Source: Actinokineospora pegani (lineage in GTDB: Bacteria; Actinomycetota; Actinomycetes; Mycobacteriales; Pseudonocardiaceae). Taken from it: a stretch of 58,781 nucleotides of DNA. The position numbers and the translations under genes were made by a program. How positions within the stretch are numbered: position 1 is the first letter of the stretch; each line of letters opens with the position of its first letter. Positions 1-17,649 of the stretch are shown here, piece after piece. The notes under the pieces were generated by a model, which was given only the letters and a program-made list of their open reading frames with translations, had not been told where the DNA came from and searched no databases. The stretch is taken from assembly GCF_009745975.1 (NCBI RefSeq), contig NZ_WHOL01000070.1, positions 1 through 58,781 on the forward strand. Direction: 5' to 3'.

Positions 1-2982
1 CGGCTGGATGAGGCGTTGGACGAGTTGGTCGGGTTTTTCGTCAACACGTTGGTGCTGCGCACGGATGTCTCCGGTGACCCGACGTTCGGTGAGTTGGTGG
101 CCCGGGTGCGCGACGCCGACCTGGCCGCGTTCGAGCACCAGGACCTGCCATTCGACCTGCTGGTGGAGGAGTTGAACCCGGCCCGCTCGACCGCGCACCA
201 CCCGCTGTTCCAGGTGATGCTCGTGCTGCAGAACAACGCCGAGGCCGAGGCCATCGGCGCCGGGTCGGCGAGCGCGGGCACCGGGGCCAAGTTCGACCTG
301 ACGCTGGCGGTCAAGGAGGTCGCGGGCCACGGGGTGCGGGGGACGCTGGAGTACGCCACCGACCTCTACGACCGGGGGACCGCCGAGCTGCTGGCCGAGC
401 GCCTGCGGCTGCTGTTCACCGCTGTCGCCGCCGCCCCGCGGACGCGGCTCAGCGATCTCGACCTGCTGACCGAGGGGGAGCGGACCCGGCTGCTCACCGG
501 GTTCAACCCGGAGCCGGTGGACGCCCCGGTGGCCTGCGTGCACGAACTGGTCGCGGCCAGGGCGAGGGCCACGCCGGACGCCGAGGCCGTGTGCGACGAG
601 TCCCGGTCGCTGACCTTCGCCGAGCTCGACGCGCTGGCCAACGGGGTGGCGCGTCGGCTGGTGGCCGACGGGGTCGGCCCGGGGTCGGCGGTGGGGGTGC
701 GGATGCCGCGCTCGGTTGACCTGGTGGTTGCGGTGCTGGGCGTGCTCAAGGCGGGTGCGGCGTACGTGCCGGTGCCCGACGGGCTGCCCGCGGCGCGGCT
801 GGCGGCGATGCTGGCCGAGGCGGGGGCGTCGGTGCTGCTGGAATCGCTGGGCGGGGTCGCGCCCAGCCCGGTGGCGCCCGAGGTCGAGGTGGGGGTGGAC
901 GACCTCGTCTACGTCATGTTCACCTCCGGCTCCACCGGCAGGCCCAAGGGGGTGGGCGTGACCCACCGCAACGTGGCGCGGCTGGCGCGCGACCGGTGCT
1001 GGGACCCGGGGACCCACCGGCGGATGCTGGTGCACTCCGCGTTCGGGTTCGACGCCTCCACCTACGAGATGTGGGTGCCGCTGCTCGTCGGCGGGTCGCT
1101 GGTGGTCTCCGGCGGCGACGGGGCGGACGTGGCGCACCTGGCCCGGGTGATCGACCGGCACGACGTCACCGCCGCCTACTTCACCGCCGGGCTGTTCGCG
1201 CTGGTGGCCGAGGAGCACGTGGACGCGCTGGGCAGGCTGCGCGAGGTGTGGACCGGTGGCGACGTGGTCGCCCCGGCCACCTTGCAGCGGGTCCTGACCC
1301 ACTGCCCGGACACGGTCGTGGTGCACAGCTACGGGCCGACCGAGACCACCTTCGCGTCCAGCCGCCAGCGGTTCGGACCCGACCAGCGCGATGGGGCGTC
1401 CGTCCACCTGGGGGTCCCGCTCGACCACAACCGGCTCTACGCCCTCGACGACCGGCTGCGGCCGGTGCCGCTGGGCGGGGTCGGCGAGCTGTACATCGCG
1501 GGCGAGCAGGTGGCCCGCGGGTACGTGAGGCAGCCCGGGTTGACCGCGCACCGGTTCGTCGCCGACCCGTTCGGGCCCGACGGCGAGCGCATGTACCGCA
1601 CCGGTGACCGGGTGGCCTGGTCGACGACGGGGGAGCTGCGCTTCCTCGGCCGCGTCGACACCCAGGTCAAGGTGCGCGGGTTCCGCATCGAGACCGGGGA
1701 GGTCGAGTCGGTGCTCGCGCCGCACGTCGGGCAGGCGGTCGTGCTGGTGCGGGAGGACCGGCCGGGTGACAAGCGGATCGTCGCCTACGTGACCCAGCCC
1801 GCGGTGGCGGTGGACGGGCTGCGCGCCCACGCCGCCGAGGCGCTGCCGGAGTACATGGTGCCCTCGGTGTTCGTGGTGCTCGACGAGTTGCCGCTCACCC
1901 CGAACGGCAAGCCGGACCGGCGGGCGCTGCCCGCCCCGGCGGGGGCGGTCGGGGCGGGGCGGGCCCCGCGCACGCCGGACGAGCGCGTCCTGTGCGGGCT
2001 GTTCGCCGAGGTGCTGGGGCTTCCCCCGGTCGGGGAGGCGGGCTCGGTCGGTGTGGATGACGGGTTCTTCGACCTCGGCGGGCACTCGTTGCTCGCCGTG
2101 CGGCTGGTCAGCCGGGTGCGGGCCGCGCTCGGCCGGGAGATCGCGGTGCGCGACGTGTTCCGCTGCCCGACCCCGGCGGCGCTCGCCGCCCTGGGGGCCA
2201 GCGCGGGCCGGGCCGCGGGCGGTCGGGCGGTGGAGACCCTGCTGCCGCTGCGCCGGGGCGGGGCGGCGACCCCGCTGTTCTGCGTGCACCCCGGCATGGG
2301 CTTGGCCTGGCCGTACGCGGGGCTGACCCGCCACCTCGGGCCTGACCAGCCCGTCTACGGCATCCAGACCCGCGAGCTGACCGGCGGCGCCACCGCCGGC
2401 TCGATCGCGGAGATGGCGGCCGAGTACCTGACCCTCGTCCGCGGTGTCCAGCCGCACGGTCCCTACCGGCTGCTGGGCTGGTCCTTCGGCGGGGTCGTCG
2501 CCCACGAGATGGCGGCCCAGTTGCAGGAGCGGGGCGAGGACGTCGAACTGCTCGCCCTGCTCGACTCCTACCCGGCCGTGCCCGGGGGCGCGGGGGACGG
2601 GCGCGAATTCCTCGGCGCCCTGTTCGACGACCCGGCGGCCATCACCGACACCACCCCGCCGGCGCTGGCCCGCGCCCTCCGCGACCGCGACCCGGTCCTG
2701 GCGGGCCTCGACCACGACGAGGTCACCACCCTCGTCACCGCCGCCGCACGGCACACCGCCCTGCTGCGCGACCACCGGCCCCGGCTGGTCACCGGCGGCG
2801 CCCTGCTCTTCCGCGCCACCCGGGGCAGCGGCCCCGCCCCCGACCGGTGGCACCCGCACCTGACCGGCGGGCTGACCCTCGTCGACGTCGACGCCACCCA
2901 CCTCGGCCTGGCCGCCCCGGCCCCGCTGACCACGATCGGCGAGACCCTCGCCACCGCGCTGTCCACTCAACTCATCCGCTGA
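1..2982 (+). CDS. Nonribosomal peptide synthetase, terminal C-A-PCP-TE module (5' partial)
   Basis: The reading frame is open from base 1, so the start lies upstream of the window. In order it holds the C-terminal part of a condensation domain ([13 protein letters not shown], about nt 28-66), an adenylation domain with core motifs [11 protein letters not shown] (about 919-951), [22 protein letters not shown] and NGKPDRR, a carrier protein with [10 protein letters not shown] (phosphopantetheine Ser, about 2077-2106), and a type I thioesterase with the GWSFGG nucleophile motif (about 2476) and a late ATHLG histidine. The domain order marks the chain-terminating module: it activates the last residue, condenses it and releases the peptide by hydrolysis or cyclisation. 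Aligning by eye to PheA gives the specificity residues D-A-Y-Y-W-G-S-F-A-(K), which I cannot match to a known substrate. The MbtH partner follows 27 bases downstream. Confidence 0.96.
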
Positions 2983-3228: not shown

Positions 3229-3259
3229 CCCCGGCCGCCCGGAAAACGGGTGGCCGGGG
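3229..3259 (+). terminator. Hairpin terminator after the NRPS-MbtH operon
   Basis: CCCCGGCC-G-CCCG, loop GAAAA, CGGG-T-GGCCGGGG forms a 12-bp G+C stem with one internal mismatch. It begins 12 bases after the MbtH stop codon. It has no T tract, which is common for actinobacterial hairpin terminators. Confidence 0.75.
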
Positions 3260-3285
3260 CAAAGGGGGCTGGGTACAAACAGCCC

Positions 3286-4086
3286 ATGCGCCCGTACACC
3301 GGACCGGACGACCTGCGGTTGATGCAGGGCCTGGCCCAGCGGCTGTGGTCGCACCGCTCGCAGTGGCACATCGGCGACCTGGTCTGGCAGCGGTTCCAGC
3401 ACCTGGGTCGGGAGCCGGAGTGGCCCACGGCGCTGTGGGAGGTCGACGGGAGGGTGGTCGCGTGGGGCTGGGTGCGGGAGCCCGGGGGGCTCGCCTACCA
3501 GGTCGACCCGGACTTCCCGGACCTCGCCGCTGAGGTCGTGGCGTGGGGCGAGCCGGAGGCGGTGTGGTTGATCGACGGGGAGGAGCACCTGGTCCCGGCC
3601 GGGTTCACGGCGCGGGAGGTCCGGTCCACCCACATGAGCCGGTCGTTGGCGGGGTTGCCCGAGCCGGTCCTGCCACCGGGCTTCCGGGTCGGGCCGGTTG
3701 ACGACGTGGCGGCGCGGGTGGCGTGTCACCGGTCGGTGTGGCGCCCGTCGAGGGTGACCGAGGAGAGTTATCGGGTGGTGATGGGGGCGTGGCCGTATGA
3801 GCGGTCGCTGGACCAGGTGGTCGTCGCGTCGGACGGGACGGTGGCGGCGCAGTGCCTGGTGTGGGCCGACGAGGTGAACGCGGTGGGGGAACTGGAGCCA
3901 GTGGGGACGGTGGAGTCGTTTCGGCGGCTCGGGCTGGGGCGCGCGGTGTGCCTGGCCGCGATGCGGGCCGCTGCCGAGCGGGGGTGCGCGGAAGCCGTGG
4001 TGTACCCGGTGACGGGGTGGGCGCAGGCGTTCTACCGGTCACTGGGGTTCACGCCGTACGCCCGGACGCGGGCGTACCGGCCGTGA
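3286..4086 (+). CDS. GNAT-family N-acetyltransferase, two-domain
   Basis: This 266-residue protein looks like two fused GNAT halves. The C-terminal half has the acetyl-CoA loop region (VESFRRLGLGRAVCLAAM, about residues 205-225) and the AFYRSLGF motif near the end, which are typical of the fold. The N-terminal half (residues 1-110) is a degenerate GNAT-like domain. The ATG at 3286 is preferred over an upstream in-frame GTG at 3250, because the upstream start would lie in the terminator hairpin. No strong ribosome binding site precedes it, so it may be leaderless. The substrate is unknown. It overlaps or abuts a second GNAT gene, and the pair may tailor or detoxify the nearby peptide, or be unrelated to it. 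Confidence 0.85.
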   Translation: MRPYTGPDDLRLMQGLAQRLWSHRSQWHIGDLVWQRFQHLGREPEWPTALWEVDGRVVAWGWVREPGGLAYQVDPDFPDLAAEVVAWGEPEAVWLIDGEEHLVPAGFTAREVRSTHMSRSLAGLPEPVLPPGFRVGPVDDVAARVACHRSVWRPSRVTEESYRVVMGAWPYERSLDQVVVASDGTVAAQCLVWADEVNAVGELEPVGTVESFRRLGLGRAVCLAAMRAAAERGCAEAVVYPVTGWAQAFYRSLGFTPYARTRAYRP

Positions 4087-4100
4087 GGCAGGATGTCCGA

Positions 4101-4577
4101 GTGGACCTGCGCGCTGTCACTGACCAGGACTGGGGACGGGTCTGGCCGTTCATGCGGGAGATCATCGCCGCCGGCCAGACCTACACCCTCGCCACGGACC
4201 TCACCGAGGCCGAGGCTCGCGCGATGTGGCTGATCCCCACCGCCCTCGTCGCCGTGGCGGGCGACACGGTCCTGGGCATCGGCAAGTTCCACGCCAACCA
4301 CGGCGGCAACGCCGACCATATCGCCAATGGCAGCTTCATGGTCGACCCCGCCCACGCGGGCAAGGGCGTCGGCCGCGCCCTCGGCGCCCGGGTGCTGGAC
4401 GAGGCCAGGGCGGCGGGATTCACCGCCATGCAGTTCAACGCCGTCGTGTCCACCAACACCGCCGCCGTCCGCCTCTGGCGGTCCCTCGGCTTCGAGGTCG
4501 TCGCCACCCTGCCCGGGGGCTTCCGCCACCCGGTGCACGGGCCGGTGGGCCTGCACATCATGTACCGGGAGCTGTAG
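4101..4577 (+). CDS. GNAT-family N-acetyltransferase
   Basis: A single-domain GNAT of about 158 residues. It starts VDLRAVTDQDW and has a conserved beta4-loop-alpha3 acetyl-CoA segment (FMVDPAHAGKGVGRALG, giving the Q/RxxGxG/A-like K-G-V-G-R) and the NTAAVRLWRSLGF motif, as in phosphinothricin and amino-acid N-acetyltransferases. GTG at 4101 follows an AGGCAGGA sequence. An alternative GTG at 4083 would overlap the previous stop codon as GTGA and add six residues. The substrate is not evident. It precedes the glutamate-mutase operon but is separated from it by a likely leaderless promoter. Confidence 0.85.
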   Translation: MDLRAVTDQDWGRVWPFMREIIAAGQTYTLATDLTEAEARAMWLIPTALVAVAGDTVLGIGKFHANHGGNADHIANGSFMVDPAHAGKGVGRALGARVLDEARAAGFTAMQFNAVVSTNTAAVRLWRSLGFEVVATLPGGFRHPVHGPVGLHIMYREL

Positions 4578-4635
4578 CGGCGGGACTGCCTGAATACTGC
4601 CGGTCCAACTACCGCTCGGGGGCTCTGGGCCGACC

Positions 4636-4641
4636 TAGCTT
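4636..4641 (+). promoter_or_regulatory. Likely leaderless -10 element (TAGCTT) of the glutamate-mutase operon
   Basis: TAGCTT fits the actinobacterial TANNNT -10 consensus and ends seven bases before the ATG at 4648, where no Shine-Dalgarno sequence is present. That spacing puts the transcript start at or next to the initiation codon. Confidence 0.5.
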
Positions 4642-4647
4642 TGCGGC

Positions 4648-5085
4648 ATGGCCTCGCGCAGTGGTGGTGCAGTCGGTGTGGTCGATGTGCTCGTCGCGGG
4701 CACGGTGTCGGACTCGCACACGTGGAACCTGATCTTCCTGCAGCTGTTCTGCGAGGAGCGCGGGCTGCGCGTGGCCAACCTGGGGCCCTGCGTGCCCGAC
4801 GCGCTGCTGGTGGCCGAGACGGTGGCGCTGCGGCCCGGGGTGGTGGTGCTCAGCAGCGTCAACGGGCACGGGTACACCGATGGGCTGGTGACGGTCCAGG
4901 TGCTCAAGGCGGCGGTGCCCGACGCGCGGGTGGTGATCGGGGGGAAGCTGGGGATTGACGGGCGGGGGCGCGGCGAGTGGACCTCCGCGCTGGTCGACGC
5001 CGGGTTCGACGCGGTGTTCCAGGGCGGGGACCTGGAGGCGTTCGGCGACTACCTGGCCGGTGCGCCGCTGGCGGTGGGGTCATGA
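4648..5085 (+). CDS. glmS: Glutamate mutase S (sigma) subunit-like cobalamin-binding protein
   Basis: A 145-residue protein with the flavodoxin-like B12-binding fold: a DxH motif (D22, H24; the His is the expected lower cobalt ligand), an SSVNGHG segment where B12 proteins have the S-loop, and VIGGKLG for the GG motif. In the family this subunit carries adenosylcobalamin for the carbon-skeleton rearrangement of L-glutamate to (2S,3S)-3-methylaspartate with the E subunit. The usual DxHxxG reads DSHTWN here, with Asn replacing the Gly, so cofactor geometry may differ. The stop overlaps the E-subunit start as ATGA. The symbol is the clostridial glutamate-mutase name, not glucosamine-6-phosphate synthase. 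Confidence 0.88.
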   Translation: MASRSGGAVGVVDVLVAGTVSDSHTWNLIFLQLFCEERGLRVANLGPCVPDALLVAETVALRPGVVVLSSVNGHGYTDGLVTVQVLKAAVPDARVVIGGKLGIDGRGRGEWTSALVDAGFDAVFQGGDLEAFGDYLAGAPLAVGS

Positions 5086-6284
5086 GCTTCGGGCGGTTCG
5101 TGCGGCGCGCGGGCGAGCTGGTCGTGCAGCCGAGGATGGGGTTCGGGGACCCGCACGCCATGCGGCGGGGGCTCATCGCCACGTGGGCGGCCGACGCGAC
5201 GACCTGTGGGACGCTCACGCTCGACAGCTACACGCGGGTCAACGACCTCAAGGCGGCCGCTGACGCGTTGCGGGACGGGTCCCCGCTCAACGGCTACCCG
5301 ATCGTCACCCACAGCGTCGACACCACCCGCCGCCTGCTCGAAGGCATCGCCCACGAGAGCTTCCCGGTGCAGGTGCGCCACGGGTCGGCGAAGCCACAGG
5401 ACATCGTGCGGGCGTTGACGGCGGTGGGGCTGGACGCCACCGAGGGTGGGCCCGTGTCCTACTGCCTGCCCTACGGCCGCACCCCGCTGCGGGAGTCCAT
5501 CGCGAACTGGCGTGAGACATGCGGGATCCTCGCCGACAGCGCGGAGACGCCGCACCTGGAGAGCTTCGGCGGCTGTCTGCTGGGTCAGTTGTGCCCGCCC
5601 AGTCTGCTCATCGCCGTCAGCGTGCTTGAGGGGATCTTCTTCACGCGCAACGGAATCCCCAGCGTGTCGCTGAGCTACGCGCAGCAGACAGACCCCGCCC
5701 AGGACGAGGAAGCCATCCGGGCCTTGCGCACACTCGCGGCCCGCCACCTGCCCACAGACGCCGACTGGCATGTCGTCCTCTACGGCTACATGGGCGTCTA
5801 CCCCACAACCACGCACGGCGCGCTCAACCTGCTCAAGGCATCCGCCGAACTGGCAGCGCGCACAGGCACGGAACGGCTCATCGTCAAGACAGTCGCCGAA
5901 TCGCAGCGAATCCCGACAGTCGAAGAGAACGTGCAAGCGCTGGAAGTCGCCGCTGCTGCTGCGAGAGCGCACACCCCCCAACCGTCCACGCGCGACACAG
6001 GCATCCTCGACGAAGCGTCAGCGCTCATCGACGCGGTGCTCAACCTCGACGACGACCTGGGCCGTGCCCTGGCCGAGGCCTTCGCGCGCGGCGTGCTCGA
6101 CGTCCCGTTCTGCCTGCACCCCGACAACACCGGACAGGCCCGCAGCACCGTCGGCGACGACGGCACCCTGCGCTGGACCGCCACCGGGGCCATGCCCATC
6201 CCCCCGTCCGCCGCCGACCACCCGCTCACCTCGGAGCGCCTGCTCACCGCCCTGACCCACGTCGCCAGGGCGTTCGACCGCTGA
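5082..6284 (+). CDS. glmE: Glutamate mutase E (epsilon) subunit-like
   Basis: A 400-residue TIM-barrel-type catalytic subunit. It has the signature EGGPVSYCLPY about residue 126-136; this matches EGGPxSYNxPY of clostridial GlmE, whose Glu and two Tyr residues bind substrate, so those three are kept while the Asn is Cys. RHGSAKP and FGGCLLGQLCPPSLL also fit the family. It is shorter than clostridial GlmE (about 483). It is translationally coupled to the S subunit by ATGA. The expected reaction is Glu to 3-methylaspartate. Codon use between about 5690 and 6010 drifts to A-ending codons (ACA, GAA, TCA, GCA), unlike the neighbours. Confidence 0.88.
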   Translation: MSFGRFVRRAGELVVQPRMGFGDPHAMRRGLIATWAADATTCGTLTLDSYTRVNDLKAAADALRDGSPLNGYPIVTHSVDTTRRLLEGIAHESFPVQVRHGSAKPQDIVRALTAVGLDATEGGPVSYCLPYGRTPLRESIANWRETCGILADSAETPHLESFGGCLLGQLCPPSLLIAVSVLEGIFFTRNGIPSVSLSYAQQTDPAQDEEAIRALRTLAARHLPTDADWHVVLYGYMGVYPTTTHGALNLLKASAELAARTGTERLIVKTVAESQRIPTVEENVQALEVAAAAARAHTPQPSTRDTGILDEASALIDAVLNLDDDLGRALAEAFARGVLDVPFCLHPDNTGQARSTVGDDGTLRWTATGAMPIPPSAADHPLTSERLLTALTHVARAFDR

Positions 6285-6301
6285 ACCCGGAGGAGCCAGC
6301 C

Positions 6302-7285
6302 ATGTCCGAATCACCCCTGCCCCCGCTCGCCGAGCACCTGACCGCCCGGTCGACCGCGGCGGCCATGCGGGTGCAGCAGGAGGCGCTGCAGGCCGCTCGC
6401 GACCACCTGCGCTCCCTGGGCTTCCAGGAGCTGCTGCCGCCGCTGATCGGCCCGGTCACCGACCCGGGCGGGCGCGGCGCCAAGGCGCTCGACGTCGACT
6501 TCTACGGCCACCGCTACAAGATGATGACCAGCGCGATCCTCTACAAGCAGGCGTCGCTGCGCGGGTTCCCGAAGCTGTTCTACATCGCCCCCAACGTGCG
6601 GGTGGAGCCCGCCGAGACCGCGGGCACCGGGCGGCACCTGGTCGAGTTCCACCAGATCGACGTCGAGGTCGCCGGGGCCACCCGGGCCGGGGCCATGGGC
6701 GTGGCCGAGTCGCTGCTGACCCACGTGGTCGACCACGTGTGGCGCGCCGTCCCGGAGACGCTCACCGAGCTCGGCCGCGACCGCGAGTCCTTCGCCGAGC
6801 TGCTCGCCGGGCCGTTCGACCAGGTCACCCACCACGACGCGGTGGCGGGCCTGCGCTCGGTCGGGCACGACCAGAACCCGGACGGCGAGATCGATTGGGC
6901 GGGGGAGGAGCTGCTGTCGCACAAGGCGGAGCGGCCGTTCTTCATCACCGGCTACCCCAAGGGCTCGCGCGGGTTCTACGACCGCGAGGACCCCGACAAC
7001 CCCGGCCAGTTGCGCAACTTCGACCTCATCGCGCACGGCGGGTTCGGCGAGCTGGTCAGCGGCAGCGAGCGCGAGGCCGACTACGCCACGATCGTCACCC
7101 GGATGCGCGAGAGCGGCGAGAACCCGGCCAAGTACGCCTGGTACCTGCGGGCCGCGCGCGAGGGCATCCCGGGCAGCGCCGGGTTCGGCATGGGCGTGGA
7201 GCGGCTGACCCGCTTCCTGACCGGCCTCGACGCGCTCTGGCAGGTCAGCGCGTACCCGAAGCTGCCGGGGGTGGCGACGCCGTGA
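6302..7285 (+). CDS. Stand-alone class II synthetase core, asparagine synthetase/AsnRS-like
   Basis: A 327-residue catalytic core related to Asp/AsnRS without the N-terminal anticodon-binding domain. It shows motif 2 (NVRVEPAETAG followed by RHLVEFHQIDVE, about residues 98-122), the AsnRS-like PFFITGYPKG block (about 214), ELVSGSEREADY and motif 3 (GFGMGVERLTRFL, about 296-308). Archaeal proteins of this shape (AS-AR) make asparagine from aspartate, ATP and ammonia. In this operon the likely substrate is 3-methylaspartate or a derivative, activated as acyl-adenylate and possibly amidated (inference). A GGAGGAG site precedes ATG. The stop overlaps the next GTG as GTGA. tRNA charging is unlikely without the anticodon domain. 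Confidence 0.85.
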   Translation: MSESPLPPLAEHLTARSTAAAMRVQQEALQAARDHLRSLGFQELLPPLIGPVTDPGGRGAKALDVDFYGHRYKMMTSAILYKQASLRGFPKLFYIAPNVRVEPAETAGTGRHLVEFHQIDVEVAGATRAGAMGVAESLLTHVVDHVWRAVPETLTELGRDRESFAELLAGPFDQVTHHDAVAGLRSVGHDQNPDGEIDWAGEELLSHKAERPFFITGYPKGSRGFYDREDPDNPGQLRNFDLIAHGGFGELVSGSEREADYATIVTRMRESGENPAKYAWYLRAAREGIPGSAGFGMGVERLTRFLTGLDALWQVSAYPKLPGVATP

Positions 7286-8538
7286 GCGGCCTGACCACCA
7301 TGGCGGCCGGGTTCCCCGAGGAGCAGGTCCGCGAGCGCGCCAGGACGGGCGCCGCCGCCGCGTTCCCGCCCGCCGACACCTACGGCGCCGGCGTCTTCGG
7401 CGCCGACCCGTCCACGCCGCTCGACGACCTGGACGTCGCGCGGCTCGTGCCGCCGGTGTTCATGCCGCGCAGGCTGGAGAAGCTGATCGACCTGGGGCGC
7501 GAGCCCGAGCACACCGACGTCGACCTCACCGCGGCCGTGGGCGGGTTCCGCTCGACGCTGCCGCTGTTCCTCTCGGCGTTCGGGTCGACCCGGATCGGCA
7601 GCCGCGAACTCGGCGTCGCCGCCAGCGCCCAGGCCGGGCGGCTGGGCGTCCCGATGGTCATCGGGGAGAACATGGTGCCGGTGCACGGGTTCGGCGGCTC
7701 GCCGATCCTGGCCAGGATCTCGGCCTACCTCGAGACCGTGGCCGACGGGGTCGGCGGCGTCGTGGTGCAGCAGAGCACCGAGGACGCCGACTCCGAGGTG
7801 TGGAACCTCGTCTACAGCTCACCCGCCGCCGCGCCGCTGCTGGAATCGGGGCGGCTCGCGTTCGAGCTCAAGGTCGGGCAGGGCGCCAAGCCCGGGCTCG
7901 GCGGCATGACCGTGCTCGACGCCGCCGAGGCCGCGCGGCTGGCGGACCGGTTCTCCCTGCACGACGTGTTCGGCACCGACGCGCGGCTGCGCTGCGCCAC
8001 CCCCGGCACGTTCACCGAGGAGATCGTGCGCCAGCAGATCCGCTTCATGCGCAACAACTTCCCGCGCGCCCGGGTCTGGGTGAAGTTCCACCCCGGCCGC
8101 GACATCGGCCGTGCCGCCGAGGTGGCGTGGGCGGCGGGCGCGGACGCGGTCACCGTCGACGGGGCCGAGGGCGGCACCGGCTGGGCGCCCACCGCGTTCC
8201 TGCGGCACGTGGGGCTGCCGCTGGCCGAGTGCCTGCGCCGGATCGGCCCGCCCGCGGGCTGCCTGCTGGTGACCGGGCGGATGTGGGAGGGCAGCCGGGT
8301 CGTGCGGTCGCTGGCGCTGGGCGCCTCGGCCGCGGGCCTGGGGCGCGCCGCCCTGGTCGCGGTGGCCGAGGACCCCGGCGCCGGCCTGCTGCGGCTGGCC
8401 GAGTGCCTGGCGCTGGAGGCCAGGCTGCTGATCAGCGCGCTGGGCAAGTACGCCCCCGCCGACCTCGACGCCGACGACCTGTGGTGGCCGGGCACGCGGG
8501 CCGCCGACCGGGTCGCGGACCCGGTGCGGGGAGGGTGA
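7282..8538 (+). CDS. Glutamate synthase-like FMN-binding protein (stand-alone GltB central domain)
   Basis: This protein of about 418 residues matches the FMN/TIM-barrel domain of GltB-type glutamate synthases. It has GQGAKPGLGG (about residue 199), a KFHPG segment, then AGADAVTVDGAEGGTGWAP (about 285-305, the FMN-phosphate GGTG motif) and GRMWEGSRVVRSLALGASA. It lacks the amidotransferase domain. I also find no three-cysteine [3Fe-4S] motif in the usual place after the GGTG block, where CLLVTGRM is followed by no further spaced cysteines. It may carry out an FMN redox step or amine transfer on the product of the previous genes. Related stand-alone domains include archaeal glutamate synthases and N-methylglutamate synthase subunit C. 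GTG 7282 is chosen for GTGA coupling; ATG 7300 is the alternative. Confidence 0.85.
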   Translation: MSGLTTMAAGFPEEQVRERARTGAAAAFPPADTYGAGVFGADPSTPLDDLDVARLVPPVFMPRRLEKLIDLGREPEHTDVDLTAAVGGFRSTLPLFLSAFGSTRIGSRELGVAASAQAGRLGVPMVIGENMVPVHGFGGSPILARISAYLETVADGVGGVVVQQSTEDADSEVWNLVYSSPAAAPLLESGRLAFELKVGQGAKPGLGGMTVLDAAEAARLADRFSLHDVFGTDARLRCATPGTFTEEIVRQQIRFMRNNFPRARVWVKFHPGRDIGRAAEVAWAAGADAVTVDGAEGGTGWAPTAFLRHVGLPLAECLRRIGPPAGCLLVTGRMWEGSRVVRSLALGASAAGLGRAALVAVAEDPGAGLLRLAECLALEARLLISALGKYAPADLDADDLWWPGTRAADRVADPVRGG

Positions 8539-8539
8539 G

Positions 8540-8803
8540 GTGGCTGACTCGGTCGGGATCGGGCGGGCCGGGGCGCTGCACGCGTTCTTCACCCCGTCGG
8601 AGGTGCCCGTGGTGACGGTGTGGCCGCCCTGGTGCCGGGCGGGCGCTGGGCGGGCCGCGCGGTGGACGCTGGCCGCGCACGGCCAGGCCCACCTCGGCGG
8701 GGACCTGGTGGTGGTGTCCGACGTGGAGCACCACCTGGCCGCGCGGCTGGCCGCCGCGCGCGCCGTGGACGACGCCGTGCTCAGGGGGAGGAGGCCGCGA
8801 TGA
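8540..8803 (+). CDS. Small conserved-position protein of unknown function
   Basis: An 87-residue protein starting with GTG one base after the previous stop and ending in a four-base ATGA overlap with the MFS gene. Such tight packing strongly supports a real gene. I do not recognise the family. It has a hydrophobic N-terminal half with SEVPVVTVWPPW and a single Cys, then a segment reading HLGGDLVVVSDVEHHLAARLA, and a basic tail. No signal peptide is clear. It could be a small accessory subunit of the FMN or synthetase enzyme; that is inference from position only. Confidence 0.6.
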   Translation: MADSVGIGRAGALHAFFTPSEVPVVTVWPPWCRAGAGRAARWTLAAHGQAHLGGDLVVVSDVEHHLAARLAAARAVDDAVLRGRRPR

Positions 8804-10008
8804 CCGCCGTGCGTGGTGAACAGGTCCGGGAGCGGACCGACTGGCCCCGGATGGGGACCCTGGTCAGCGGGCAGGCGGTGTCGCTGATCGGCGACAGCAT
8901 GCTGTCGATCGCGCTGTCCTGGAGCGCGGTTCGCCTGGGCGGCGCGGGCGCGGTCACCCTGCTGATGCTGTGCTCGACGCTGCCCAAGGCCGTGATGCTG
9001 CTGGTCGGCGGGGCGGTCGCGGACGCGCTCGGGCCGCGGTTCACCCTGCTGCGCACCACCTCCGGGCGCGTGGTGCTGCTGGCGCTGGGCGCGGTCGGGG
9101 TGCTGGTGGCCGAGTCGCTGCCGGTGCTGGCGGTGATCGCCGTCGTCGAGGGCGTGCTGCTCGGACTGGGCGGGCCGTCGTTCGGCACGATCCTGCCCCG
9201 GCTGGCCTCGGGCGACGACCTGCTGCGCGCCAACTCCGGGTACTCCACGGTCACCCGGCTCGCCCCGATCCTCGGCGCCCCGCTCGGCGCCGCGCTGATC
9301 GCCGTGGGCCACCTGTGGATGGCCATGGCGGTGGTGTCGCTGACCTGCGCGGTGGCCCTGGCGTGCCTGGCGCACGTGACCCGGGGGATGCGGGCGCGGC
9401 CCGACCCGGCCAGGACCCCGCTGCTGCGGCGCTCCCTCGACGGGTTCCGGGTGCTGGGCCGCTCGACGCGGCTGCGCAGGCTGTTCGTCTCCTCGTTCCT
9501 CATCGACTTCTGCTTCGGCTGGCCGCTGCTGGCCGCGGTCCCCCTGCTGGCCGTCGAGCGCGGCTGGGGCGTGGGCGCGGTGGGCTCGGTGATCGCCGCG
9601 TTCAGCGGCGGCGCGCTGGCCTCGACCGCCCTCGGGGCCGCTGTCGCGCACCGGCTGCCGCTGTTCGCCCGGCTGGTCGTGAGCGGGTTCGTGCTGGCCG
9701 CGGCGCTGCTGGCGATGGCGTTCGCGCCGGACCCGGTCGTGCTGTCGGCCATCGCGTTCGGCGCCGGGGCCGCGTCCGGCTTCAACGGCCCGGCGACCGT
9801 CACCCTGTTCCAGGCCGCCGCCCCACCGGGGCAGATGGGCTCGGCGATGGCGGCGCTGGCGCTGGCCGGGATCGGCACCGCGCCGTTCTCCGCCGCCGTG
9901 TTCGGCGGGTTGGCGCTGCTGGTCGGGGTGCAGGCGACCTGGGTGACCTGCGGGGTGATCGCCTTCGCGGGACCGGTGGTCGGGATCCTCGCGCTGCGGA
10001 CGCGGTAG
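8800..10008 (+). CDS. MFS transporter (probable exporter)
   Basis: A 402-residue major facilitator protein with about twelve hydrophobic segments. Its N-terminus reads WPRMGTLVSGQAVSLIGDSM, typical of the EntS/drug-exporter type MFS (MFS_3). A GGAVADALGPR loop between TM2 and TM3 corresponds to the MFS signature GxLaDrxGrR. It starts inside the previous gene (ATGA overlap) and is the last gene of the glutamate-mutase operon. Export of the peptide or of an amino-acid product is the probable role. Confidence 0.9.
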   Translation: MTAVRGEQVRERTDWPRMGTLVSGQAVSLIGDSMLSIALSWSAVRLGGAGAVTLLMLCSTLPKAVMLLVGGAVADALGPRFTLLRTTSGRVVLLALGAVGVLVAESLPVLAVIAVVEGVLLGLGGPSFGTILPRLASGDDLLRANSGYSTVTRLAPILGAPLGAALIAVGHLWMAMAVVSLTCAVALACLAHVTRGMRARPDPARTPLLRRSLDGFRVLGRSTRLRRLFVSSFLIDFCFGWPLLAAVPLLAVERGWGVGAVGSVIAAFSGGALASTALGAAVAHRLPLFARLVVSGFVLAAALLAMAFAPDPVVLSAIAFGAGAASGFNGPATVTLFQAAAPPGQMGSAMAALALAGIGTAPFSAAVFGGLALLVGVQATWVTCGVIAFAGPVVGILALRTR

Positions 10009-10020
10009 CCGGGGTTGCGG

Positions 10021-10036
10021 GGACCCCGCGGGGTCC
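10021..10036 (+). terminator. Palindromic hairpin after the MFS gene
   Basis: GGACCCCGCGGGGTCC is a perfect 16-base palindrome that can fold with a CGCG loop. It lies 12 bases after the MFS stop and 14 bases before the first LLM gene. It may end the biosynthetic operon or act as a weak attenuator; there is no T tract. Confidence 0.4.
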
Positions 10037-10049
10037 GGAGAGTGGGGGT

Positions 10050-10898
10050 GTGCGCTACTCGGTCAACATCCCCAACTTCGGAGACTTCGCGGACCCGCGG
10101 GCGGTGGCGGACCTCGCCGCCGCGGCCGAACGGGCGGGGTGGGACGGCCTGTTCGTCTGGGACCACCTGCGCGGGTTCCGGCAACCCCGGCCCGAGGTCG
10201 GGGACCCGTGGGTCCTGCTGACCGCCGCCGCCCTGGCCACCTCGACGCTGACCATCGGCACGCTCGTCACCCCCGTCGCCCGGCGCCGCCCGCACCAACT
10301 GGCCCGCGTGGTCACCACCCTCGACCGGCTCACCGGCGGGCGCGTGGTCCTCGGCGCCGGGCTGGGCGCGCCGCTGGACGAGGAGTTCGGCGCCTACGGC
10401 GAGCCCACCGACCCGAAGGTCGTCGCCGCGCTGCTCGACGAGGGCTTGGACCTGCTCAACCGGTACTGGAGCGGCGAGACCGTCACCCACGACGGCCCGG
10501 CGCACAAGGTCGACGGTGTGCGGCTGCTCCCGACGCCGGTGCAGCGGCCGAGGGTGCCGGTCTGGGTCGCGGGCTACTGGCCCAACAAGCCGCCGATGCG
10601 CCGGGCCGCGCGGTGGGACGGTGTCGCGCCCATGTTCGCCGACGCCGACCACGGGTTCGCGCCGTCGGTGGCCGCCGTGCGCGACCTGGTCGACTACGTC
10701 GGCTCGCACCGCGAGGGCGGCGGGCGCTTCGACGTGGTGGTCGGCGGGGCGACGCCGCTGACCGGGGGCGTCGACGTCGTGGGGCCGCTCGCCGAGGCGG
10801 GCGCGACCTGGTGGGACGAGCGGGTGCCGGTGGACAGCCCGGACCTGGACCGGCTCGACGCGGTGCTGCGCCGGGTCGAGGCGGGGCCGCCGCGCTAA
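10050..10898 (+). CDS. LLM-class (F420-family) oxidoreductase, copy 1
   Basis: A 282-residue luciferase-like monooxygenase-fold protein. It starts VRYSVNIPNFGDFADPRAV and has LFVWDHL, ATSTLTIGTLVTPVARRRPH and LTGGRVVLGAGLGAP, all standard for F420- or FMN-dependent LLM enzymes. A second gene with nearly the same length and most of the same residues follows 39 bases downstream, so the two are a recent tandem duplication. The start is the GTG directly before CGC TAC in both copies, preceded by a G-rich AGTGGGGG stretch. The substrate is unknown. Confidence 0.9.
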   Translation: MRYSVNIPNFGDFADPRAVADLAAAAERAGWDGLFVWDHLRGFRQPRPEVGDPWVLLTAAALATSTLTIGTLVTPVARRRPHQLARVVTTLDRLTGGRVVLGAGLGAPLDEEFGAYGEPTDPKVVAALLDEGLDLLNRYWSGETVTHDGPAHKVDGVRLLPTPVQRPRVPVWVAGYWPNKPPMRRAARWDGVAPMFADADHGFAPSVAAVRDLVDYVGSHREGGGRFDVVVGGATPLTGGVDVVGPLAEAGATWWDERVPVDSPDLDRLDAVLRRVEAGPPR

Positions 10899-10937: not shown

Positions 10938-11786
10938 GTGCGCTACTCGGTGAACATCCCCAACTTCGGCGACTTCGCGGACGCGCGCGCGGTGGCGCGG
11001 GTGGCGGCCGCGGCGGAGCAGGCGGGGTGGGACGGCCTGTTCGTGTGGGACCATGTCGTGCACATCAAGGCCAAGCGCCGCGCGCTGGGCGACCCGTGGA
11101 TCCTGCTGGCCGCCGCCGCGCTGGCCACCTCGACGCTGACCCTCGGCACGCTCGTCACCCCGGTCGCCCGCCGCCGCCCGCACCAGGTGGCGCGCCAGGT
11201 CGCCACCCTCGACCACCTCACCGGCGGCCGGGTCGTGCTCGGCGCCGGGCTCGGGGCCCCGCTGGCCGACGAGTTCGGCGCGTTCGGTGAGCCGACCGAC
11301 CCGGTCGCCCTGGCCGGGCTGCTGGACGAGGGGCTGGAGCTGATCGACCGCTACTGGACCGGCGAGCCCGTCACCCACTCCGGCCCGCACTTCCGGGTGG
11401 ACGACGTCGCCCTCCTGCCCACCCCGGTCCAGCGCCCGCGCGTGCCGGTCTGGGTGGCGGGCTACTGGCCCAACAAGCCGCCGATGCGCCGCGCCGCGCG
11501 CTGGGACGGCGTCGTCCCGATGTTCCTCTCGGCCCGGCACGGGGTCTTCCCGCCCGTGGCGCAACTGCGCGACCTCGTCGACTACATCGGCGAGCGGCGA
11601 CCAGGCAGCGGCCCCTTCGACGTCGTGGTGGGCGGCCCGACCCCGCCGACCGGCGGGGCCGACCTCGTCGCGCCCCTGGCCGCGGCCGGGGCGACCTGGT
11701 GGGACGAGCGGCTGCCCATGGACAGCCCCGACCAGGACAAGCTCGGGCCGGTGCTGCGCAGGGTCGAGGCCGGGCCGCCGCGCTGA
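10938..11786 (+). CDS. LLM-class (F420-family) oxidoreductase, copy 2
   Basis: A 282-residue paralogue of the preceding gene with the same N-terminus (RYSVNIPNFGDFADARAV) and shared long blocks such as VWVAGYWPNKPPMRRAARW. Copy 1 has HLRGFRQPRPEVGDPW where copy 2 has HVVHIKAKRRALGDPW. This is a change in the loop after the DH motif, where LLM enzymes contact substrate, so the copies may act on different substrates. Same GTG start context. Probably co-transcribed with copy 1. Confidence 0.9.
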   Translation: MRYSVNIPNFGDFADARAVARVAAAAEQAGWDGLFVWDHVVHIKAKRRALGDPWILLAAAALATSTLTLGTLVTPVARRRPHQVARQVATLDHLTGGRVVLGAGLGAPLADEFGAFGEPTDPVALAGLLDEGLELIDRYWTGEPVTHSGPHFRVDDVALLPTPVQRPRVPVWVAGYWPNKPPMRRAARWDGVVPMFLSARHGVFPPVAQLRDLVDYIGERRPGSGPFDVVVGGPTPPTGGADLVAPLAAAGATWWDERLPMDSPDQDKLGPVLRRVEAGPPR

Positions 11787-14747: not shown

Positions 14748-16938
14748 ACCAGTCGAAGGGGCCGGTGGGCAGTTCGGGGTCTTCGAGGCGGTGGCTGTGG
14801 CCGGTCCCCTCGACGTCGAGGCGGGGCAGGATCCGGTTGACCCACTCGGGCAGCCACCAGTTGGCCTTGCCGAAGATGGTCATGACGGCGGGGACCAGGG
14901 CGATGCGGATGATGACCGCGTCCAGCAGGACCGCGACCGTCAGGCCCAGGCCGGACTCCTGCACGACGCGTTCCCCGGTGGTCACGAAGGACACGAAGAC
15001 CAGGGCCATGATCAGGGCGGCGGCGGTGATCGTGCGGCCGGTGGCGGCGAGGCCGTTGACCGTGGCCTCCACGGTGTCGCCCCGGCGGTGGTACTCCTCC
15101 TGGATCCGGCTGACCAGGAACACCTCGTAGTCCATCGATAGGCCGAATAGACCCGCGAAGAGGAACACCGGGATGTAGGGCTCGATCGGGCCGGTGTCGG
15201 CGATGCCGAACCAGCCCCACTGGAACACCGCGACCAGCACGCCGAACATCGCCGCGGCGGCGAGCAGGTTCATCACCGCCGCGGTGAGCGGGATCAGGAT
15301 GCTGCGGAAGACCAGCACCAGCAGCAGGAACGAGATCGCCACGACGGTGAACAGGAACAGCGGCAGGCGGTCGGTGATGGCCTCGGAGAAGTCGGTCTGC
15401 ACGGCGGTCACACCGCCGACGTAGAGCTGGGCGCCGCTCGTGCCCGCGGCGGTCGGGATGACCTGGTTGCGCAGGTTGTCGACCAGGGCGCTGGTGGCCT
15501 CGTCCTGCGGGGACGCCTTCGGGTAGACGATGACGGCGGTGATCTGGCCGCCCTGCTTGGTCGGGGTGACCACCGGCGGCACGGCCTGCGCCACGTCGGG
15601 GTGGGTGGCCAGCTCGCGGTGGACCTTCTCGGCCGCGGCGCGCTCTTCCGGGGTGTCGGCGCGGCCGACGACGACCAGCGGGCCGGTGAAGCCGGGGCCG
15701 AAGCCCTCGGCCAGCATGTCGTAGGACTGCCTGCTGGTGGACTCCTCCTTGAGCAGGCCCGCGTCCGGGATGCCCAGGCGCAGCGAGAACACCGGGATCG
15801 TCATGATGCCGATGACCAGCAGCGCGAGCAGCGTGGACAGGTACGGCCTGCGGGTGACCGCCCGCGCCAGCGCGCCCCAGCGCCGCCCCTCGGGGAGCAC
15901 CTTGCGGTGGCGCAGGGACATGTCGCGGCGCACCGACGAGGACAGGATGCGCATTCCCAGCACCTTGAGCAGGGCGGGGAGCAGGGTCAGGGCGGCGAAC
16001 ATGGTCATCAGCACCGCGATGGAGGAGCTGATGGCGATGCCGTCGAGGAAGCTGATGCCGACGGTGAACTGGCCGAGCAGCGACACGCAGACGGTCACGC
16101 CCGCGAACAGCACGCTGCGCCCGGAGGTGGCCGCCGCCAGGGCCAGGGCGTCCTCCTGGCGGGCCCCGCCCACCAGGGCTTGTCTGTACCTGGTGACGAC
16201 GAAGAGGGCGTAGTCCACCCCGACGCCCAGGCCGAGCAGGATCACGATCTCCTGGCTGACCGTCGGCACGTCCATGACGTGGGTCATCAGCCCGACCACG
16301 CCGATCGCCGTGCCCACGGAGATCACCGCGGTGACGATCGGCACCAGCATCGAGAACAGCGACCCGAAGGTGAACAGCAGCACGATCGCTGCCGCGAGCA
16401 GGCCGAACCCGGCGTCGTCGAGGTTGGGCGGGCCGATCGTGCGGGTGGCGACCGCGCCGTCCACGGCGACCTTGAGCACCCCGCCCGAGGCGGCCTTGGC
16501 GGTCGCGACGAAGTTGTCGGCCTCCTCCTGGGTCAGGTCGTCGGCCTTGACGTCGAGGGTGACGGTGGCGAACGCGACCTGCTGCCCCGGCGAGATCTGC
16601 GCCCGCCCGGCCTCGGAGTAGGGGGAGACGACCGCGGCGACGTGCGGCAGCCTGGCGATCTCGGCCAGCATCGGCTCGACCCTGGCCTGCACCGACGGGT
16701 CCACGACGGACACCCCGTCGGTCTTGACCACGACCCGCTCCTGGGCGCCGCCGATCCCGCCGGCGCTGTCGGCCAGCAGGTCCTGGGCGGTGCTGCTGTC
16801 CGACGCGGGCAGGGCCAGCACGTCGCGGAAGTCGATGCCCGCCGACTGGGCCCCGTAGGTGGCCCCGGCCAGCACGGCGAGCCACAACACGATGACGAGT
16901 CGCGCGTGGCGGTAGCAGAAGATCGCGAGAGCCCGCAC
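14689..16938 (-). CDS. MmpL/RND-superfamily transporter
   Basis: A 749-residue MMPL-family membrane protein. TM1 lies at residues about 13-30, followed by a large periplasmic-type loop, a block of five to six helices around 190-370 (including VILLGLGVGVDYALFVVTRY with the GVDYALF core), a second loop and a second helical block at about 540-700 (LSMDYEVFLVSRIQEEY with the MDYEVF core). Actinobacterial MmpLs move lipids or other hydrophobic molecules with the proton motive force. GTG start. The TAG stop lies in the sequence CGACCTAG, which resembles the end of the dispersed repeats at 29891 and 49133. Confidence 0.93.
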   Translation of the reverse strand: MRALAIFCYRHARLVIVLWLAVLAGATYGAQSAGIDFRDVLALPASDSSTAQDLLADSAGGIGGAQERVVVKTDGVSVVDPSVQARVEPMLAEIARLPHVAAVVSPYSEAGRAQISPGQQVAFATVTLDVKADDLTQEEADNFVATAKAASGGVLKVAVDGAVATRTIGPPNLDDAGFGLLAAAIVLLFTFGSLFSMLVPIVTAVISVGTAIGVVGLMTHVMDVPTVSQEIVILLGLGVGVDYALFVVTRYRQALVGGARQEDALALAAATSGRSVLFAGVTVCVSLLGQFTVGISFLDGIAISSSIAVLMTMFAALTLLPALLKVLGMRILSSSVRRDMSLRHRKVLPEGRRWGALARAVTRRPYLSTLLALLVIGIMTIPVFSLRLGIPDAGLLKEESTSRQSYDMLAEGFGPGFTGPLVVVGRADTPEERAAAEKVHRELATHPDVAQAVPPVVTPTKQGGQITAVIVYPKASPQDEATSALVDNLRNQVIPTAAGTSGAQLYVGGVTAVQTDFSEAITDRLPLFLFTVVAISFLLLVLVFRSILIPLTAAVMNLLAAAAMFGVLVAVFQWGWFGIADTGPIEPYIPVFLFAGLFGLSMDYEVFLVSRIQEEYHRRGDTVEATVNGLAATGRTITAAALIMALVFVSFVTTGERVVQESGLGLTVAVLLDAVIIRIALVPAVMTIFGKANWWLPEWVNRILPRLDVEGTGHSHRLEDPELPTGPFDWFKATTDEDQPKELPAASSR

Positions 16939-17649
16939 GGGCAGCAGCCTAGTTCACCCGGTGACCGGGCAACACGTGCGCCGGTGACAAAAGCGCACGG
17001 CGAAGTTGTGCCGGTCCGATCGCCGGTCGGCAGCCCGGTCGGCTCCGACCGCGCCTGGCACCTCCAGTGTGCGCTCGCGCGCCCGGAAAGTCACCGCCCC
17101 AACGGAGTACTGCCGCTCACCCGGTCGAGGGGTGTTCGGGAAAGGATCGGCGGAGGGCATGATCATGTGGGGCGGCGCCGCCGCGGCGAGGTCGAGAGCG
17201 ACCCGGGGTGCTCGGAGTCCTCCGAGTGCGACAACAGCGTCCCGCCGCGGGGATGCGGGACCGCCCGGCAACCGGGTGAGCGCTTGTCCGGGCCCGCCGG
17301 TGACTCCACGTGGTACGTTTGAGTTTCACTGAACTTGTTGGCATTGAGGGAATTCTCGCCAGTTCGTGGGACGTGGTCCGGGTGAGCCTGTTCGGTCGCG
17401 ATCCACTCGAGGTCGGGTGCGCGGATTTGTGTCGCCGCGTGATCAACCGGCTGTCGGTCGGTGACAAGGTTGGGGGCGCGTCATTTTCCGCGCTGTTCAC
17501 CGGTTGGTTTTCCCTTGCCTAGTCAGCTATTGCGTGGTTACGCTCCAAATACGCGCCGACCGGTTCGGTTCAGGTCGGAGCCAGCACTCTCTCATTATCC
17601 CTGCTTATTGTTTCCGTTTCCTTCGTGCGTATTCAGCGAGGAGTTTCGC
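16939..17649. other. Long intergenic region upstream of a secreted protein
   Basis: About 710 bases lie between divergent genes without a convincing gene. G+C drops clearly after about 17310, where runs such as TTTGAGTTTCACTGAAC and, near 17580-17640, TCTCATTATCCCTGCTTATTG occur. That suggests a long 5' leader or promoter region for the secreted protein at 17650. A 70-codon ORF at 17310 has no coding-like third-position bias. Confidence 0.5.

Follow-up and report, generated by a model that had tools for sequence, protein, structure and literature searches.

A conserved four-gene cassette of actinomycetes and a possible route to an unusual amino acid building block

The first four genes of a tightly packed group in Actinokineospora pegani, at 4648-8538 of the window (one entire contig, C70, of 58781 bases), are a conserved unit, and the cassette that they form is widespread and not peculiar to this cluster. 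It encodes a glutamate-mutase-like pair, a class II synthetase core akin to the asparagine synthetase A (AsnA) of archaea and a stand-alone FMN barrel oxidoreductase. We read it as a cassette for a peptide building block in which glutamate would be rearranged, amidated and then acted upon by the flavin enzyme, a three-step scheme that appears plausible as a whole but falls short of probable.

Results

Gene layout and recurrence of the cassette

The six genes from glmS to the MFS exporter (Table 1) overlap by 4 bases at the first, third and fifth junctions; a 17-base gap lies between the end of glmE and the synthetase start at the second, and a 1-base gap at the fourth. The ORF coordinates thus bear out the packing described in the initial annotation (overlaps of 4 bases or gaps of no more than 17 bases). 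The two GNAT acetyltransferases that separate the NRPS from the cassette are probably accessory. Judging from a comparison with A. spheciospongiae, the upstream part of this NRPS very probably lies on another contig of the genome, C72.

Table 1. Genes of the cassette region and its upstream neighbours in the window.
Feature	Position	Strand	Evidence
NRPS C-terminal piece: partial C, A, PCP, TE	16..2982	+	Pfam; truncated by contig start
GNAT acetyltransferase, between NRPS and cassette	3250..4086	+	Pfam; also in A. spheciospongiae (L022)
Second GNAT acetyltransferase (start provisional)	4083..4577	+	Pfam; also in A. spheciospongiae (L022)
glmS (GlmS-like B12-binding subunit of glutamate mutase, 145 aa)	4648..5085	+	Pfam B12-binding PF02310, 37 bits
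glmE (GlmE-like catalytic subunit of glutamate mutase, 400 aa)	5082..6284	+	Pfam Met_asp_mut_E PF06368, 3e-84
Class II synthetase core (327 aa; related to archaeal asparagine synthetase A)	6302..7285	+	Pfam tRNA-synt_2, NF005052
Stand-alone GltS-type FMN barrel oxidoreductase (418 aa; GTG start)	7282..8538	+	Pfam Glu_synthase + FMN_dh
Small ORF (87 aa; GTG start; unnamed family)	8540..8803	+	No Pfam/NCBIfam family match
MFS exporter	8800..10008	+	Pfam MFS_1 PF07690, 9e-26; NCBIfam search

The grouping is not a matter of chance, because the four genes recur together: they co-occurred in 23 of 25 stretches taken from relatives and were all present in 84 of the 96 distinct loci bearing the FMN gene (the window left out), being collinear on a single strand in 75 of them. 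The spacing between synthetase and FMN gene was 60 bases or less in 86 of the 93 loci having both on one strand. Relatives of the FMN protein were found at 202 places in our scan, and the best 80 of these belong to actinomycetes (Streptomyces, Lentzea, Micromonospora and others), where the cassette lies in NRPS clusters and also in stretches with no NRPS seen. At four loci (L030, L036, L041 and L123) the cassette was present with no NRPS within the fetched stretch. The clusters without a visible NRPS carry peptide ligases of the ATP-grasp type, as well as a MetRS-like protein and a DAO-type oxidase. On viral contigs, no relative was confirmed.

Among 200 genomes of the family, 22 were positive for the synthetase at E <= 1e-60, and all 22 also had the FMN gene and glutamate mutase. 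Every synthetase match (24/24) adjoined an FMN match, and no synthetase without an FMN gene was found in this set; the counts hold at the cut-offs used. In three draft genomes the synthetase and FMN genes were present but a glutamate mutase was not detected, and therefore 3-methylaspartate need not be the substrate in every case.

The initial annotation grouped the small protein and the exporter with the other four genes, but they lie outside the conserved core. Relatives of the 87-aa protein, which has no family in Pfam or NCBIfam, occurred in 41 of 105 loci, and the MFS of this locus was matched in 40 of the 80 named loci. The small protein was at first assumed to be a companion of the exporter, but over all loci 37 of its 41 matches fall within 400 bases of the FMN gene and 26 of the 41 fall equally close to the exporter; either of the two may be its partner. 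In one genome (L028/L117) it adjoins the FMN gene, and the MFS of this locus has no match there. At L048, L052, L058 and L090 the exporter is about 7 kb from the FMN gene and the small protein stays beside the exporter.

The glutamate mutase pair

GlmE matched the Clostridium cochlearium enzyme with E = 1.5e-31. The residues R66, R100, R149, E171, Y177 and Y181 (C. cochlearium numbering), which we take to be the substrate-site residues of that glutamate mutase, were invariant in 88 of 88 sequences, window included; a further position tried, E330, was kept in only 15 of 88. In GlmS the DxHxxG cobalamin motif retained D in 84/84 and H in 85/85, but had N in place of G in 85/85. The pair has the same two-subunit B12 architecture and the same substrate-site residues as the clostridial mutase, yet falls under the NCBIfam equivalog cut-offs (GlmE 166 bits against 390 for TIGR01503; GlmS 38 bits against 110 for PRK02261). 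We class the two proteins from their sequences as glutamate-mutase-like, which upholds the earlier identification of two B12 mutase subunits, and predict that they very likely convert glutamate into 3-methylaspartate.

The synthetase

The description of the synthetase as a class II core without an anticodon domain also stood, since the tRNA-synt_2 match of Pfam fills residues 14-320 of 327. The N-terminal anticodon-binding domain typical of asparaginyl-tRNA synthetase (AsnRS) is absent, and archaeal-type asparagine synthetase A (Pyrococcus; PDB 3p8t, 3reu, 1nnh) is likewise a class II core lacking such a domain. The protein scored 422 bits against NF005052 (asparagine synthetase A; cut-off 368), a model that may contain the synthetase's own group. 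In a small tree with only five outside sequences, it was split together with archaeal AsnA from AsnRS plus AspRS with an ultrafast bootstrap of 100, and its identity to archaeal AsnA was about 40% over aligned blocks. The invariant Lys82 has a lysine as its counterpart in AspRS and AsnA, but AsnRS has no lysine there. Alignment columns were split 14 to 14 between AsnA and AsnRS, and in the structural comparison Z was higher with AsnRS. The synthetase is nearest in sequence to archaeal-type asparagine synthetase A, with some evidence pointing to AsnRS, and because of this kinship amidation of 3-methylaspartate is its most likely activity, which we predict as probable. It differs from the archaeal enzymes in having about 60 residues (140-198, unaligned) where they have about 33, and also in its setting, since within the 200-genome set it was seen only beside an FMN gene.

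The FMN enzyme

Across its 418 residues the FMN protein matched only FMN-domain families of Pfam (Glu_synthase at residues 193-361, and FMN_dh), which agrees with its annotation as a lone GltS-type domain; no glutaminase (GATase) domain was found by Pfam and no NCBIfam model scored over its cut-off. It has in common with the FMN domain of glutamate synthase (GltS/GltB) the barrel and the motifs GAKPGxGG, kept in 26 of 26 FMN proteins, and GGTGxxP, kept in 23 of 26. In contrast to glutamate synthase it stands alone, and neither the 3Fe-4S cysteine pattern C-x3-7-C-x3-6-C (the role of this cluster in GltS is treated in parts of PMC8097209) nor the PPPHHDIYS stretch occurred in any of the 26. The structural model predicts a TIM-barrel fold; GltS was absent among the structural matches listed for it, which is not evidence against kinship.

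A-domain context and known products

A-domain codes were extracted by our own alignment with motif anchors. The NRPS A domain of the window reads DAYYWGSFA, and no substrate was matched to this code or to DALQFGGGF. The code DAQDLGLVD, one letter of which was a gap in the alignment and was read by eye, occurs near the cassette in this genome (contig C72), A. spheciospongiae and S. lavendulae, DAQDFGLVD near those of four Lentzea and DLTKVGEVA near that of L043. We take the first two of these three to be amide-type codes and the last to be Asn-like; the presence of such A domains near several cassettes speaks for an amide building block.

Literature searches on glutamate mutase, asparagine synthetase, methylasparagine, hydrazine synthetase, cirratiomycin and relatives, and GltS, with few subscription journals covered, listed no paper on a mutase combined with such a synthetase and an FMN enzyme, in line with the initial annotation. 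One paper pairing 'glutamate mutase' and 'tRNA synthetase' (PMC12087186) has the mutase only in its reference list. The cassette is carried by S. cirratus (L082) and S. lavendulae (L065), species given as producers of dehydro-amino-acid peptides in parts of PMC4282715, the producer strains being not matched to these two loci. Some of the proteins near the S. lavendulae cassette were annotated, and none of them was recognised as the product of a piperazate or hydroxymethylserine gene; we therefore withhold an assignment to antrimycin, cirratiomycin or lavendomycin. S. fragilis also carries the cassette (L053), and the main text of the azaserine paper PMC10445470 has neither 'mutase' nor 'asparagin'. 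A role like that of the hydrazine synthetase Spb40 was not accepted, because Pfam found no cupin domain in either of the two clusters tested (L036 and L041, with no NRPS seen).

Discussion

With adenosylcobalamin, GlmS and GlmE would convert L-glutamate into 3-methylaspartate, as their conserved residues suggest. The synthetase, by its kinship with archaeal AsnA, would then use ATP to adenylate the side-chain carboxylate, and reaction with ammonia would set free 3-methylasparagine. A precedent for an amidated 3-methylaspartate in a natural product is the tetramic-acid unit of streptolydigin, which has a 3-methylaspartate-derived side-chain amide; the comparison is at the level of the product. 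The FMN barrel, coupled to the synthetase, would act on this amide amino acid, and this is the weakest step. We favour a two-electron oxidation of 3-methylasparagine as the candidate reaction, most likely by removal of hydride from the alpha carbon to an imino or dehydro form that would be trapped or processed further; that the enzyme oxidises at the alpha/beta carbons is a tentative proposal. The product would enter the peptide-bond machinery of the cluster, here an NRPS apparently split over C72 and C70, and elsewhere ATP-grasp ligases. The annotated route from glutamate through 3-methylaspartate, carboxylate activation or amidation and an FMN redox or amination step to the NRPS is partly supported, by the mutase residues, the AsnA-type synthetase (which fits amidation), the GltS-type barrel and the adjoining NRPS, and for the remainder is a prediction from sequence.

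A more speculative reading, which we regard as possible but rather doubtful, is that the AsnA-like and FMN proteins are a new two-protein system in which flavin oxidation of an asparagine intermediate would convert 3-methylaspartate (or aspartate, if there is no mutase) into an amino acid that this route is not known to yield. The strict pairing of the two proteins and the chemistry leave open, as candidate products, a residue that is dehydrogenated (dehydro-) or cyclised, a pyrazolidinone with an N-N bond and 2,3-diaminobutyrate formed by oxidative loss of the carboxamide carbon.

The evidence for AsnRS raises the question of whether the synthetase has kept AsnRS-like chemistry, adenylating the alpha-carboxylate and transferring the residue onto an amine or a carrier protein (e.g. 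to load NRPS modules without an A domain), where the FMN enzyme would oxidise the bound residue. This is unlikely, as the tree and the overall identity favour AsnA, Lys82 suggests a substrate whose side chain is acidic, some cassettes lie in fetched stretches where no NRPS was seen, and for the A-less modules a candidate loading set is closer at hand, consisting of a separate A-PCP, a TauD oxygenase and a thioesterase. Nor would the synthetase readily be a second asparagine synthetase that feeds asparagine to the NRPS, with the mutase and FMN genes taking part in other reactions. The three draft genomes with undetected mutase agree with such a role, but asparagine is already a primary metabolite and the mutase, synthetase and FMN genes keep one order in 75 of 96 loci, and we consider it improbable.

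For the flavin enzyme, a redox-neutral reaction, in which one carbon of 3-methylaspartate or 3-methylasparagine is oxidised and re-reduced with inversion of its stereocentre, seems unlikely to a similar degree as the AsnRS-like chemistry; the motifs are of the GltS type and GltS carries out net hydride transfer, and fold similarity says nothing on function. The enzyme might instead run GltS in reverse, oxidising glutamate and channelling ammonia to the synthetase, such that the two would be one amidotransferase with plain 3-methylasparagine as the end product. Its GltS ancestry and the strict, closely spaced pairing with the synthetase are in keeping with this role, whereas parts of PMC3854871 state a strict dependence of asparagine synthetase A on ammonia and the PPPHHDIYS of GltS is missing from the FMN proteins. 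We judge this no more probable than the role as a second asparagine synthetase.

Building-block pathways that start from glutamate mutase are known, and in the friulimicin and vicenistatin clusters such an enzyme supplies 3-methylaspartate. In comparison with these suppliers and with the C. cochlearium mutase, the mutase of the cassette has a synthetase and a flavin enzyme as fixed partners, and we rate the cassette as a variant of the known pathways. The FMN protein represents a flavoenzyme family beyond the NCBIfam models, and the pathway needs only four proteins and common reagents for assay. If an unusual amide amino acid is made, the four-gene set would offer a means of tracking down peptides containing it.

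Organization of the cassette in the window

The initial annotation had described six tightly packed genes, and the gene coordinates confirmed both their positions and their packing: the junctions are four-base overlaps, apart from one gap of 17 bases and one of 1 base. The gene names were consistent with Pfam and NCBIfam, and the synthetase is, as had been stated, a core without an anticodon domain. Because the window is one whole contig (C70 of genome G000), the NRPS gene at its start is cut by the contig edge. Two luciferase-like (LLM) flavin proteins are encoded side by side directly after the MFS gene; they share 77% identity over 282 aa, and we read the pair as a tandem duplication.

Coordinates of the genes in the window and of selected genes in other genomic stretches (L-numbers)
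Stretch	Feature	Coordinates	Remark
Window	NRPS	16-2982	incomplete
Window	glmS	4648-5085	
Window	glmE	5082-6284	
Window	class II synthetase	6302-7285	core
Window	GltB-like FMN protein	7282-8538	
Window	small protein	8540-8803	87 aa
Window	MFS	8800-10008	
Window	LLM flavin protein	10050-10898	
Window	LLM flavin protein	10938-11786	
L035	MetRS-like protein	15533-17182	
L036	MetRS-like protein	466-2376	
L041	MetRS-like protein	432-2561	
L045	FMN gene	9254-10474	synthetase absent nearby
L046	FMN gene	9164-10276	synthetase absent nearby
L148	EF-G-like gene	4180-6324	

Recurrence of the four genes

Relatives of the FMN protein numbered 202 in a scan of GTDB species genomes. Among the best 80 of these 202, the synthetase accompanied the FMN gene in all 80, glmE was present in 75 and all four genes in 70; half of the ten incomplete loci (L049, L051, L095, L098 and L126) are truncated by the contig end at that very place. 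When these loci were pooled with the family stretches described below, removal of duplicates left 96, the window not counted, of which 84 had all four genes, five had glmE with the synthetase and FMN genes, five had the synthetase and FMN genes alone and two had the FMN gene alone. The one-strand order glmS, glmE, synthetase, FMN was kept in 75 of the 96, and the synthetase and FMN genes lay within 60 bases of each other in 86 of the 93 loci with both on one strand; in L085 they are about 8 kb apart on opposite strands. Three draft genomes, those of M. gifhornensis (L052), Acrocarpospora phusangensis (L085) and S. lonarensis (L049), have the synthetase and FMN genes with no glmE detected anywhere in them; the S. 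lonarensis contig breaks off 303 bases ahead of the synthetase match. In two further genomes (L088 and L112) glmE was not beside the pair but elsewhere in the genome.

The host's family was sampled with 200 genomes, the host's own genome included, apparently in one draw for all searches. The FMN protein (E <= 1e-30) occurred in 24 genomes, the synthetase (E <= 1e-60) in 22 and glmE (E <= 1e-30) in 50. All 22 synthetase genomes fell within the 24 FMN genomes and carried glmE, all 24 synthetase matches adjoined an FMN match, and no such synthetase was found at E <= 1e-60 in the remaining 28 glmE genomes; since the family genomes are related, these counts are not independent trials. Twenty-five stretches, each some 20 kb long, were fetched around the FMN matches, and 23 of them contained all four genes. 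In the two exceptions, L045 and L046, the GAKPG motif of the FMN gene is changed or lost, and these genes look decayed or repurposed. Three separate cassette copies (L030, L041 and L042) occur in genome G163, which matches L096, Kibdelosporangium banguiense.

The conserved unit is thus four genes, from glmS to the FMN gene; of the six genes first described, those for the small protein and the MFS exporter lie outside it. The 87-aa protein had no family match in Pfam or NCBIfam, yet relatives exist: a single-sequence search reached Streptomyces proteins at E about 3e-6. Its profile, which included the window protein, matched in 41 of 105 loci, duplicates included, and some matches were arginine-rich frames on the other strand; 37 of the 41 lay no more than 400 bases from the FMN gene and 26 no more than 400 bases from the MFS gene. 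Because of this frequency and its variable position beside one gene or the other, we do not place it in the core. It stays beside the MFS gene in L048, L052, L058 and L090, where the MFS and FMN genes are about 7 kb apart, and beside the FMN gene in L028/L117, where no relative of the window's MFS was found, and it is absent from L064, L080 and L093, which have the MFS. The MFS itself was matched in 40 of the 80 named loci (the best 80 of 202 relatives). The unnamed family of the 87-aa protein, with relatives in L050, L065, L073 and others, sits between the FMN gene and an MFS exporter in many of the NRPS clusters, as it does in the window.

Glutamate mutase residues

The glmE residues aligned to R66, R100, R149, E171, Y177 and Y181, which are substrate-site positions in the C. 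cochlearium enzyme, were identical in 88 of 88 sequences, the window included, and a K and an E farther along were likewise invariant; the position tried as E330 was kept in only 15 of the 88. In the cobalamin motif of GlmS, D was found in 84 of 84 and H in 85 of 85, with N replacing G. Both subunits scored under the NCBIfam equivalog cut-offs.

Genomic contexts

Four contexts were distinguished. The first consists of NRPS clusters resembling that of the window. Contig C72 of the same genome encodes a TauD oxygenase 87% identical to one upstream of the Actinokineospora spheciospongiae NRPS, alongside C-A-PCP-C-A-PCP, a separate A-PCP protein (code DAQDLGLVD) and C-PCP-C-PCP-C-A-PCP-C running to the contig end. 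In A. spheciospongiae a C72-like set, in which a thioesterase adjoins the oxygenase, shares one contig with the cassette, and the last NRPS gene reads C-PCP-C-PCP-C-A-PCP-C-A-PCP-C-A-PCP-TE. We infer from this comparison that C72 and C70 belong to one NRPS, with about one A-PCP missing between them. A comparable set in S. lavendulae has three C-PCP units, the third retaining a weak AMP-binding C-terminal remnant. A separate A-PCP, oxygenase and thioesterase beside A-less modules resemble the SyrB1/SyrB2/SyrC arrangement. S. lavendulae also has an EF-G-like gene (L148), possibly a second, resistance-type copy, which lies upstream of its NRPS genes. The commonest code group near the cassettes was D[AS][YF]YWG; several cassettes are near DAQDLGLVD, DAQDFGLVD or DLTKVGEVA, which we take to be amide-type codes, and the substrate of DAQDLGLVD could be glutamine itself.

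A related set forms the second context (L058, L090 and L093); its genes encode ATP-grasp, PLP decarboxylase, acyl-CoA dehydrogenase and phosphopantetheinyl transferase proteins. In the third, no NRPS match was found within the fetched stretches L030, L034, L036, L037, L038 and L041; L036 encodes a MetRS-like protein, two ATP-grasp ligases, a carbamoyltransferase, an FAD oxidase and a DDAH, and several of its gene families are common to the other five. The fourth comprises L123, which carries genes of the ATP-grasp, luciferase-like and ApbA kinds, together with L099, L122 and L124, whose genes are related. The MetRS-like protein occurs in the cassette clusters of L035, L036 and L041, and its family also in L030, L033, L034, L037 and L038. 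No anticodon or cupin domain was recognised in it by Pfam (L036 and L041), and its best PDB matches, 9vq4 and 9l8v, carry only the title 'Methionine-tRNA ligase'.

The cassette is real and widespread, and judging from a limited literature search only, it is apparently undescribed. It extends the known 3-methylaspartate route, probably by an amidation and a flavin step.
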